This document shows positions 23,853 through 27,970 of a DNA stretch of 32,459 nt, one piece after another; within the stretch, counting starts at the first letter, position 1, and the number at the start of each line of letters is the position of its first letter. The position numbers were made by a program, and so were the translations under genes. The stretch comes from Spartobacteria bacterium AMD-G4 (GTDB lineage: Bacteria; Verrucomicrobiota; Verrucomicrobiia; Chthoniobacterales; Terrimicrobiaceae): assembly GCA_002290555.1 (NCBI GenBank), contig NEUK01000012.1, positions 1 to 32,459 on the forward strand, read 5' to 3'. Below the pieces are notes generated by a model, which was not told the origin of the DNA, did not search any database, and saw only the letters and a program-made list of their open reading frames with translations.

Positions 23853-25588
23853 ACAAAGACGAAATTGCCGGTGTCTTCGAAAACATCGCCCGCCTGCTGG
23901 AACTCAAAGGCGAGAATCCCTTCAAAGTCCGAGCCTACACGCACGCCGCCCGCGCGCTGGAGGCCCTCTCCGAGCCACTCGAGACGCTCATCGCCGAAGA
24001 ACGCCTCACAGCAGTTGACGGCATCGGCAAAGCCACTGGAGAAAAAATCACCGAGCTTTCCACCCACAACCGTCTCGACTACTACGACCACCTCCGCGAA
24101 GAATTTCCGCCCGACATTCTCACGCTTTTCGAGATTCAGGGCCTCGGCGCAAAAAAAATCAAAGCGCTCTGGGACACCTTGAAAGTCCACTCCGTGACAA
24201 GCCTCGAGCGCGCCTGCAAGGACGGATCCGTCGCCGCACTGCCGGGCTTCGGCGAGAAGACGGCCGCAAACATCCTCAAGGGCATCGAGCACATGCGCAG
24301 CCACGCCGGGGAATTCCTCTTCGGCGATGTCGCCCACATCGCCGAGGGTCTCCTGGACGACTTGCGCGGACATCCGGATGTCAACCTCGCCCAGATCGCC
24401 GGCAGCTTCCGCCGGAAAAAAGAAATCGTCCGCGACCTCGACTTCATCGTTTCCACCAAACAACCGGAAGCCGTCATGGCATTCTTCACCACCCATCCCT
24501 TGGTGGAAAATGTGCTCGCCCACGGCGCGACAAAATCCAGCGTCATCCTCAAGAGCGGCATCCAATGCGATCTCCGCGCCGTCACAGGCCCCGAGTTTCC
24601 CTTCGCCTTGAATTATTTCACCGGCAGCAAAGAGCACAATGTGCGTATGCGCTCCCGCGCGCTCTCGCGGGGCTGGTCGCTGAACGAATACCGCTTCAGT
24701 GCCGCCGAGGGACGCGAGCTCCGCGAACCTCTGCCCGAGGTTCACGAGGAGGCCGACATCTACCGCGCACTCGGCCTCGATCCCGTGGAGCCCGAGCTCC
24801 GCGAAGACCGGGGGGAAATCGATGCTGCCGAAAAACACAAACTCCCCCACCTCATCGAGTGGACGAACCTTCGCGGCACCTTTCACAATCACACGACCGC
24901 CAGCGACGGCCGAGCCACTCTGGAAAACATGGTCGCCGCCGCGAAGGAACTCGGGCTCGAATATCTCGGCATCGCCGACCACTCGAAGGCGTCATTTCAG
25001 GCAAATGGCCTCGACGAAACACGCCTCGCCGCCCAAGTCGCCCGCATCGCGGAACTCAATGCTGCCGACAAGGAATTCCGCATTTTCGCCGGCACCGAGT
25101 GCGACATTCTCAAGGACGGCTCGCTGGATTTTGCGGATGAAGTCCTCGCCACGCTCGATTATGTCGTGGCGAGCGTCCACTCGTCCTTCACCATGCCGGA
25201 GGCCGAGATGACTAACCGCATCATTCGCGCCATGGAAAATCCCCATGTCACCATGCTCGGCCACCTCACCGGCCGCCTCCTCCTCAGCCGCGAACCCTAC
25301 CAACTGAATATTCCCGCCATCCTCGATGCCGCTGCCGCCACGGGCACGATCATCGAACTCAACGCCAATCCCCGCCGCCTCGATCTCGACTGGCGCTGGT
25401 GGCCTCTCGCCAAAGAGAAAGGCGTGAAATGCGCCATCAATCCCGATGCCCACACGACCGCCGGCCTGCAGGATCTCCTCTTCGGCGTCGGCGTCGCCCG
25501 TAAAGGCTGGCTCACAAAAAACGATGTCATCAATACGCTTCCGCTCACCCGCATTGAGTCCATCCTCAAAGCCAAACGCTCTGCTTGA
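23849..25588 (+). CDS. PolX family DNA polymerase (HhH + Pol beta-like + C-terminal PHP domain)
   Basis: 'MNKDEIAGVFENIARLLELKGENPFKVRAYTHAARAL', 'GSFRRKKEIVRDLDFIVS', 'YFTGSKEHNVRMRSRA', PHP 'FHNHTTASDGRATLENMVAAAKELGLEYLGIADHS'. Confidence 0.94.
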   Translation: MNKDEIAGVFENIARLLELKGENPFKVRAYTHAARALEALSEPLETLIAEERLTAVDGIGKATGEKITELSTHNRLDYYDHLREEFPPDILTLFEIQGLGAKKIKALWDTLKVHSVTSLERACKDGSVAALPGFGEKTAANILKGIEHMRSHAGEFLFGDVAHIAEGLLDDLRGHPDVNLAQIAGSFRRKKEIVRDLDFIVSTKQPEAVMAFFTTHPLVENVLAHGATKSSVILKSGIQCDLRAVTGPEFPFALNYFTGSKEHNVRMRSRALSRGWSLNEYRFSAAEGRELREPLPEVHEEADIYRALGLDPVEPELREDRGEIDAAEKHKLPHLIEWTNLRGTFHNHTTASDGRATLENMVAAAKELGLEYLGIADHSKASFQANGLDETRLAAQVARIAELNAADKEFRIFAGTECDILKDGSLDFADEVLATLDYVVASVHSSFTMPEAEMTNRIIRAMENPHVTMLGHLTGRLLLSREPYQLNIPAILDAAAATGTIIELNANPRRLDLDWRWWPLAKEKGVKCAINPDAHTTAGLQDLLFGVGVARKGWLTKNDVINTLPLTRIESILKAKRSA

Positions 25589-25592
25589 TCCC

Positions 25593-27047
25593 ATGCGTCA
25601 CCGGTTTGCCATTTTTTCCACTGCGATTCTCCTACTGGCCCCCGTCTTTTTCCCTGCCCTCGCGCAGACGGTCGAGCCCGGCCTCGAGCGTGCGGTGAAA
25701 TGGAAGTGGAATGTCGCCCCACCGACCTCGGCCGCATGGGGACTGCCCACCCGCGAGATTCCCGTGCTCCAGCAACGGCCCTCCACCCAGTCCGGCAGCG
25801 CCGCCGCACTCCTGTCGGCGCAAGATATCTACACGGTTAAAAAAGGCGATGTCCTCATCCACATCGCCAAGCGGCTCCAACTCTCTGTCGCCCAACTCAA
25901 GGAATTCAACGCCCTAGAAACCGACTTTCTGAAAATCGGGCAACAACTGCGCATCCCCAGTCCAGAAGAAAAGCGCCTTCTGAAAAGCACACCCAAGTCT
26001 TCAGCAGCCCAAACCACCGCACCACCGCCAGCGGATATCGCATTGTCAGAAGTCCTCCTCCTCCGCGTTTTCTTGGACAACCAAGGCTTCGGCACTGGCC
26101 CGATCAGCGACATGCCAGACCCACTTTTCGGTAAGACGCTCCACCTCTACCAGACCGCCCGGGGCGAAACGCTCGATCACCCGACCCTGGTTGAGCGTGC
26201 CAAGGAATACACGCGCGATACGCTTGGCACATACACTCTGCGCGCGGACGACTTCCGCTTCATCGCCCCGCCGAAAGCCGCCCGCGCCGTAAGCGAACCC
26301 GCCGACAAGCCGAACCCGAAAGCCAAGCCCGCCCCCACTCCTCCCCCGACCTATCAGGAAATGGTCACAGCCGACTTCCTCGCCTACCGCTCCCCGTGGG
26401 AATTCGTCGCCGAGCGCTTCCATTGCGACGAGGCCTTCCTGCGAAAGCTCAACCCGTCGCTCGGCACCCAACCCGTTGCTGGGTCACTCTTCCGCGTGCC
26501 GAATGTGATGCCGTTTGAAATCGAAAAAATTCCTGCGACCGGTCTGCAACCCTCGGCAGATCCATCCCAGCCCCTCTCCGCAACGATCACCGATGTCTCG
26601 ACGCTCGAAATCTTCCGTTCCGGCCGGCTCATTGCCGTCATGCCCGTCGGTCGCGCCCGTCCCGGCCTGCGTGGCCGCGGCGAGTGGACGGTTCTCGATG
26701 TCATCGCCCACCCCAGACTCGCCACACTGCAGGAGGACCGCGTCGTCCAAGTCGAAAAACGGAGCCCCTTCTACACCAATCCCAACCCCACCCCCGCCAC
26801 GGTTCGCCCAGTGCTCGCGCAGGAACAATACCTGCCGCCAGGCCCCAATAACCCCGTCGGTGTCGTCTGGATCAATCTTGCCAAGGCCTCCGAGACCACT
26901 CCCCAATCTTTCGGCCTCCACGGATCCAGCGTGCCCGCCGCCATGCAAACGCTCGAGGGAATCGGCGGCTTCCGTCTCACCAATTGGGACGCCCTCCGCG
27001 CCGCCCGACTTCTCCCCACCGGCACAAAAATCCAGTGGAAACCCTGA
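25593..27047 (+). CDS. LysM domain protein with L,D-transpeptidase (YkuD)-like C-terminus, catalytic Cys apparently missing
   Basis: LysM 'IYTVKKGDVLIHIAKRLQLSVAQLKEFNALETDFLKIGQQLRIPS'; YkuD-like 'PNNPVGVVWINLA...FGLHGSSVPAAMQTLEGIGGFRLTNWDALRAARLLPTGTKI'. Confidence 0.82.
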   Translation: MRHRFAIFSTAILLLAPVFFPALAQTVEPGLERAVKWKWNVAPPTSAAWGLPTREIPVLQQRPSTQSGSAAALLSAQDIYTVKKGDVLIHIAKRLQLSVAQLKEFNALETDFLKIGQQLRIPSPEEKRLLKSTPKSSAAQTTAPPPADIALSEVLLLRVFLDNQGFGTGPISDMPDPLFGKTLHLYQTARGETLDHPTLVERAKEYTRDTLGTYTLRADDFRFIAPPKAARAVSEPADKPNPKAKPAPTPPPTYQEMVTADFLAYRSPWEFVAERFHCDEAFLRKLNPSLGTQPVAGSLFRVPNVMPFEIEKIPATGLQPSADPSQPLSATITDVSTLEIFRSGRLIAVMPVGRARPGLRGRGEWTVLDVIAHPRLATLQEDRVVQVEKRSPFYTNPNPTPATVRPVLAQEQYLPPGPNNPVGVVWINLAKASETTPQSFGLHGSSVPAAMQTLEGIGGFRLTNWDALRAARLLPTGTKIQWKP

Positions 27048-27124
27048 GCGAACCCTGAACAACCTACGGCAAAAGTTGCTTTTTTTTCCACTGACCCGTG
27101 CCATCTTCACCCATCCACCTTCGT

Positions 27125-27970
27125 ATGAGAATTCCGATGAAATCCGCATTCGCCCGCACCTTTCTTTTTTTCACAGTCGCTATCTGCCTAACATCTCACG
27201 CACCTGCCAAGGCCCAAATTCCCTCGCGCCCAGCTCCCCAAGCGCCTGTCGTGGTGGAGCCACAGCCAGTCATTAACCCTACGAACACCCCCTTGCTTGC
27301 GGTAGCCGCCCCCATGCCCGCTCCAGCCCCGACCACCCCGCGCAAGCCGGCCTACAACAGTTGCAATGTCGAGAGCAACACGGTGGCCATGACCTTCGAC
27401 GACGGCCCTCACCCGAAGCTTACCCCCCGTCTCCTCGACATCCTCAAAGAGCGCGGCATCAAGGCCACATTTTTCGTCATTGGAAAATGTGTCGCCGAGT
27501 ATCCCGACATCGCCAAGCGCATCGTCGCCGAGGGCCACGAGATCGCCAACCATACCTGGAACCACCCTCAACTCCCAAAGCTCAGCCCGACAGCCTTCGC
27601 CGCTGAAATCACCCAGACCAATGACGCCATCCAACAGGCCACCGGCATCCTCCCCGTGACCATGCGCCCGCCCTACGGAGCCATCAACGCGGGCATCACC
27701 AAACGCCTCAACGAGGAATACGGCCTCAGCGTCATCCTCTGGTCAGTCGATCCCCAAGACTGGAAAATCCGCAAATCTGATCATGTCTCCAGCCACATCA
27801 TCAAAAATGCCGCCCCAGGCGCCATCATCCTCGCCCACGACATCCACGCCTCCACCATCGACGCCATGCCCGCCGCCCTCGATGCCCTCCAAGCAAAGGG
27901 CTACAAATTCGCCACCGTCTCCGAGTTGATCGCGATGGACCGCCCCGCCGCTCCGAAAGCCACTCCCTGA
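27125..27970 (+). CDS. Polysaccharide deacetylase (NodB homology domain), secreted
   Basis: 'MTFDDGPHPKLTPRLLDILKERGIKATFFVIGKCV', 'EIANHTWNHPQL', 'LWSVDPQDWK', 'IILAHDIH'. Start could be 27125 or 27137. Confidence 0.93.
   Translation: MRIPMKSAFARTFLFFTVAICLTSHAPAKAQIPSRPAPQAPVVVEPQPVINPTNTPLLAVAAPMPAPAPTTPRKPAYNSCNVESNTVAMTFDDGPHPKLTPRLLDILKERGIKATFFVIGKCVAEYPDIAKRIVAEGHEIANHTWNHPQLPKLSPTAFAAEITQTNDAIQQATGILPVTMRPPYGAINAGITKRLNEEYGLSVILWSVDPQDWKIRKSDHVSSHIIKNAAPGAIILAHDIHASTIDAMPAALDALQAKGYKFATVSELIAMDRPAAPKATP

Follow-up and report, generated by a model that had tools for sequence, protein, structure and literature searches.

A LysM/YkuD-like protein clade of Verrucomicrobiota without the catalytic cysteine: a probable pseudo-L,D-transpeptidase

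The 484-residue protein encoded in the window, by which we refer to the whole analysed stretch of 32,459 nucleotides from Spartobacteria bacterium AMD-G4, is probably an ancient and selectively maintained pseudo-L,D-transpeptidase, which would be bound to the cell wall and most likely act there on another envelope enzyme, as its scaffold or regulator. On the evidence of the aligned sequences, the catalytic cysteine was lost and its absence has become fixed in one clade, and this clade has evolved under purifying selection, with the pocket residues and the predicted fold being retained. The gene is contained in an open reading frame on the forward strand (25446-27047) with Met 25593 as start, and is organized as follows:

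25593..27047, forward strand: coding sequence of the Cys-less LysM/YkuD-like protein (P0001, 484 aa), defined by the open reading frame and its translation, with full-length orthologues aligning from the same N-terminus
25593..25664, forward strand: signal-peptide-like N-terminus, MRHRFAIFSTAILLLAPVFFPALA followed by Q, assigned by eye from a basic n-region, a hydrophobic core and ALA before Q
25674..25715, forward strand: clade-specific N-terminal box EPGLERAVKWKWNV, residues 28-41, followed by a conserved W49-G; kept in Cys-less orthologues
25830..25958, forward strand: LysM domain, residues 80-122 (Pfam PF01476, E 8.3e-13, 48.5 bits against a cut-off of 20.9)
26049..26285, forward strand: PG_binding_1-like region, residues 153-231, aligned to active relatives
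26352..26507, forward strand: second small domain preceding YkuD, residues 254-305, YRSPWEFVAERFHCDEAFLRKLN...VPNV, conserved and containing the only Cys (278)
26568..27041, forward strand: predicted YkuD-fold domain without nucleophile, residues 326-483 (AlphaFold and Foldseek)
26655..26675, forward strand: altered loop A-R-P-G-L-R-G, residues 355-361 (G-S-x-x-x-x-P in active relatives)
26919..26921, forward strand: His443, the retained catalytic general base, present in all aligned clade members except L028 (Thr)
26958..26975, forward strand: G-I-G-G-F-R (456-461) in place of (S/T)-x-G-C-h-R, with the Gly459 codon (26967-26969) at the nucleophile position

The character of its N-terminus suggests that the protein is exported, and the LysM domain, which Pfam detects in 15 of the 16 clade members checked, points to an interaction with peptidoglycan. 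PG_binding_1 is detected by Pfam in some of the active relatives, with no match in the 484-residue protein itself, and the second small domain shares the residues Y265, E270, E274, F276, N287, V302 and P303 between Cys-less and active proteins. On the opposite strand, an open reading frame of 221 aa (26484-27149) overlaps the gene and similar antisense frames are found in many orthologous loci; we have treated this long frame as a probable artefact of codon usage and not as a gene.

The published signature of YkuD enzymes reads hGhHG(S/T)-X10-(S/T)XGChR(M/L) and their catalytic triad consists of a Cys, a His and a small residue (2025 review, PMC12729407). At the corresponding site, the protein shows the sequence FGLHGS-SVPAAMQTLE-GIGGFRL with exact spacing and only two mismatches, the replacement of (S/T) by Gly456 and of the nucleophilic Cys by Gly459. 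All other fixed positions fit, including the general-base His with the subsequent G(S/T) in H443-G444-S445 and the conserved Arg461. A sequence-only reading of this DNA had located the first His at 26919-26921 and the GIGGFR motif at 26958-26975 within an intact frame, which is exact to the codon. The same reading had regarded both the His and the nucleophilic Cys of the expected SHGC motif as gone, of which the second part stands, whereas the first requires correction, as the catalytic His443 is retained and the His that has disappeared, the second one, is not the general base. This assignment is illustrated in LDTGo, where catalysis involves C264 and H245 (PMC10864386) and where the spacing of 19 residues identifies the latter as the first His and not as the His of the SHGC motif. 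In many relatives that bear the Cys, among them the proteins L004 (SSGC) and L003 (SYGC) of the same genome, Asn, Ser or Tyr takes the place of the second His, whose loss thus carries little information. Judged from the alignment, it is the loss of the Cys that is the meaningful change. Another Cys positioned in the pocket, which the initial reading had named as a finding that would refute its proposal, was rejected, since Cys278, the sole Cys of the entire protein, is located outside the YkuD domain. In orthologues, Cys residues inside this domain occur only at the scattered positions 342, 375 and 445. A replacement nucleophile of a different kind was rejected as well, since none is conserved at positions 456-459, and at the nucleophile site of the orthologues no Ser, Thr, Asp or Glu has newly arisen and been conserved.

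The assignment to the YkuD family is complicated by the weak score of the Pfam profile. The match of PF03734 to residues 394-480 reaches 12.8 bits and thus remains below the cut-off of 23.4, and any match was found in only 7 of 16 Cys-less clade members, with a best E-value of 0.0083. Because the profile misses the clade, its members have likely been annotated as LysM proteins only and overlooked. An alignment to PF03734, as proposed in the sequence-only reading, consequently does not pass the threshold, but homology is supported by other means. In a phmmer search of the PDB, the best sequence match was 8da2 (E 1.2e-15), and a Foldseek search with the AlphaFold model of the full-length protein (pLDDT 81.3) retrieved the same entry, an L,D-transpeptidase from A. 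baumannii (E 1.1e-12), followed by B. subtilis YkuD. When modelled on its own, the YkuD domain (pLDDT 77.5) finds L,D-transpeptidases as PDB matches, the best being B. subtilis YkuD (4a1i, E 1.9e-6, TM 0.56), and is thus still predicted to adopt the fold of the family, in answer to the question of structure that the initial reading had raised. The homology to YkuD thus rests on sequence search, alignment and predicted fold.

To define the distribution of the altered motif, orthologues were collected from 58 related genomes, a genome_contigs scan and samples of 384 genomes of the class and 388 genomes of the phylum. Among the 36 distinct orthologues with readable motif, including the copy in the window, none carries the Cys; 35 contain a Gly and one a Trp (L019, motif SIGWLR). 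Conversely, the Cys is found in 68 of 68 of the next homologues, proteins of about 30% identity from Verrucomicrobiota, Acidobacteriota, Sphingomonas and others, in the form of SHGC, SNGC or SSGC, a contrast for which chance does not account. It is also kept by the other five YkuD proteins that the genome encodes, as well as by the 28 other YkuD loci examined in the same genus. The shared loss on which the sequence-only reading had made its proposal depend is therefore general in the clade, with no SHGC-bearing orthologue among the readable copies, and a sequencing error or isolated mutation was rejected in light of the 35 other orthologues that share it. Since the loss is fixed in every readable copy across several families, we regard the protein as long-kept and probably non-catalytic and not as the product of a broken gene. 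Within the genus, 15 of 16 genomes contain the orthologue or part of it, and it also occurs in the majority of the genomes sampled from the family and in a few from the order. Luteolibacter marinus (L046), Verrucomicrobium sp. BvORR034 (L044) and additional genera of the class (L129-L139) carry it as well. Of the 384 genomes in the class sample, 25 were positive, and the phylum sample gave no orthologue match outside the class. A plasmid search returned only distant L,D-transpeptidase-like proteins, with less than 30% identity among the matches listed. In one same-genus genome (L045:4895-6236), the orthologue is split over two reading frames by a frameshift, either real or introduced during assembly. 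In two other orthologues the YkuD-like domain has drifted further: L028 has Thr instead of His443, and L030 has Gln instead of Arg461.

In a phylogenetic tree of 72 proteins, calculated with the motif columns left out and rooted at its midpoint, 33 Cys-less proteins occupy one side of a single branch (SH-aLRT 100), corresponding to one change of state. A single loss of the Cys is thus the simplest reading rather than proven, given the midpoint rooting and the length of the branch between the two groups. Ratios of dN/dS obtained for eight pairs by the method of Nei and Gojobori range from 0.04 to 0.20 for the whole protein and from 0.07 to 0.19 for the YkuD domain, with some of the pairs being near saturation at synonymous sites, and the latter range indicates that the dead domain is not relaxed. 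Together with the intact frames and the shared substitution, these low values agree with the initial view that the gene does not show random decay. The clade is also distinguished by residues of its own. In the loop comprising residues 355-361, Cys-less proteins share the pattern A-R-P-G-L-x-G, with R356, P357 and L359 found in 33 of 33 sequences, in place of the G-S-x-x-x-x-P of active relatives, where G355 and P361 are present in 39 of 39. Residues W269, E280, Q319, P475 and W482 are equally invariant in the Cys-less clade, and a box with the sequence EPGLExAVKWKW is conserved just after the signal peptide. Common to both groups are GPNNPxG, W426, H443-G444, R461, N464, W465 and D466.

The genomic surroundings were inspected for potential partners. 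The gene is followed by a deacetylase:

27125..27970, forward strand: secreted polysaccharide deacetylase, downstream of the Cys-less gene (PF01522, E 1.4e-41)

In most of the loci examined in the genus, this deacetylase comes directly after the Cys-less gene, and a gene for a PolX-type DNA polymerase, located upstream, usually precedes the Cys-less gene within the genus. In other families neither of them was seen next to the gene, whose neighbours there are unrelated and include a release-factor-3-like GTPase, OTCase, CPSase and LamB, among others. Synteny was thus rejected as a pointer to a partner, since the proximity of both genes is confined to the genus. Outside the genus, immediate neighbours differ from family to family and no candidate partner is conserved among them. 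A search of the gene's flanks for promoter- or terminator-like sites gave nothing above chance. Further upstream, the window contains a gene for an outer membrane efflux protein (OEP, PF02321; 20987-23050, forward strand). The same genome holds genes for PBP transpeptidases and the five Cys-bearing YkuD proteins, and is therefore equipped to build and crosslink peptidoglycan.

In the mechanism that we consider to be probable, the protein would be exported, its LysM domain would bind the glycan of peptidoglycan and the YkuD-derived pocket would probably bind stem peptides. Since the thiol nucleophile is absent, the acyl-enzyme that characterised YkuD enzymes require could not be formed, which strongly suggests that the protein does not act as transpeptidase. 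Most likely it would instead be held on peptidoglycan and serve a different envelope enzyme as scaffold or regulator. Any of the genome's five L,D-transpeptidases with Cys might be this enzyme, and candidate contact surfaces are the N-terminal EPGLExAVKWKW box, the RPGL loop specific to the clade and the dead pocket; the identity of this partner and the direction of regulation are speculative. The designation as L,D-transpeptidase pseudoenzyme in the sequence-only reading is thus borne out by the lack of both an SHGC-bearing orthologue and a pocket Cys, by the predicted fold and by purifying selection, and a scaffold or regulator, as it suggested, can reasonably be proposed. Counting against such a role, the retention of the general-base His and the Arg would seem to exceed the apparent needs of a pure scaffold, and the lack of a conserved neighbour beyond the genus also speaks against it.

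Several other explanations deserve consideration. The YkuD domain could be a purely structural or stem-peptide-binding module of a peptidoglycan anchor, which staples envelope layers or strands of the sacculus and has no regulated partner. The combination of LysM, PG-binding-like region and retained pocket residues and the gene contexts in other families, which do not include a conserved partner, are compatible with this reading, but the invariant loop residues and the N-terminal box of the clade hint at a more specific contact than general attachment to the wall, and we thus view it as rather unlikely. Considerably less probable is a hydrolytic activity independent of the Cys, for example the cleavage of stem peptides by a water molecule activated by His443. 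Although this residue and Arg461 are kept in nearly all aligned orthologues, their respective losses in L028 and L030 argue against a preserved His-dependent chemistry, the nucleophile site offers no conserved alternative residue, and characterised YkuD enzymes are inactive once their Cys is replaced (PMC10864386; PMC12548408). A decaying gene or an assembly error might be invoked in light of the fragmented assembly (74 contigs, 82% complete) and the frameshifted copy of L045, but the same substitution is found in many independent genomes, isolates included, frames are intact and dN/dS is well below 1, so that this explanation, already refuted by the orthologues, has a negligible probability.

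Returning to the scaffold or regulator, we tentatively propose, as a conjecture that we would not favour over its converse, that the clade constitutes a dedicated Verrucomicrobiota family of pseudo-L,D-transpeptidases regulating 3,3-crosslinking, which might activate or restrain active LDT paralogues or shield stem peptides and would thus be the LDT counterpart of what EnvC and NlpD are for amidases. A search of open-access literature, which covers the field incompletely, brought up no description of a YkuD clade that naturally lacks the Cys; this silence does not prove novelty. That a lineage dropped the Cys and purifying selection then preserved the protein in several families suggests that a YkuD fold can have a task other than catalysis, and the cultured carriers Luteolibacter marinus and Verrucomicrobium sp. 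BvORR034 make this role testable.

A non-catalytic role, akin to that of degenerate LytM factors and of LdtJ, is our best reading by analogy. In A. baumannii, the LdtJ variants C390S and delta-YkuD restore growth of an ldtJ mutant, with the catalytically dead protein restoring growth and shape, and the authors propose a non-enzymatic role of structural or scaffolding nature (PMC12548408); our clade bears on the question of what L,D-transpeptidase scaffolds do besides chemistry. The entry 8da2 is probably LdtJ, since removal of a signal peptide would account for its Cys lying at about position 368 of the chain and not at 390, as in the C390 of the paper. Its PG-binding-like region, second domain and YkuD domain follow each other as in the Cys-less protein, but it contains SHGC, and LdtJ is an active enzyme. 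B. subtilis YkuD (1y7m/4a1i), the founding member of PF03734, likewise combines LysM with the YkuD fold, but it is much smaller, about 17% identical and equipped with the catalytic Cys (S-K-G-C in the alignment). The degenerate LytM factors EnvC, NlpD and ActS, although unrelated in fold and family, provide a precedent for a dead cell-wall enzyme fold that is kept in evolution, with EnvC reusing its deactivated LytM cleft for regulation by binding the autoinhibition helix of AmiB (PMC8416486). Finally, E. coli DpaA (LdtF) is also a YkuD-fold protein that is not a transpeptidase; it cleaves Lpp from peptidoglycan and does not contain the conserved Arg (PMC12729407), whereas the Cys-less protein has kept the Arg and lost the Cys.
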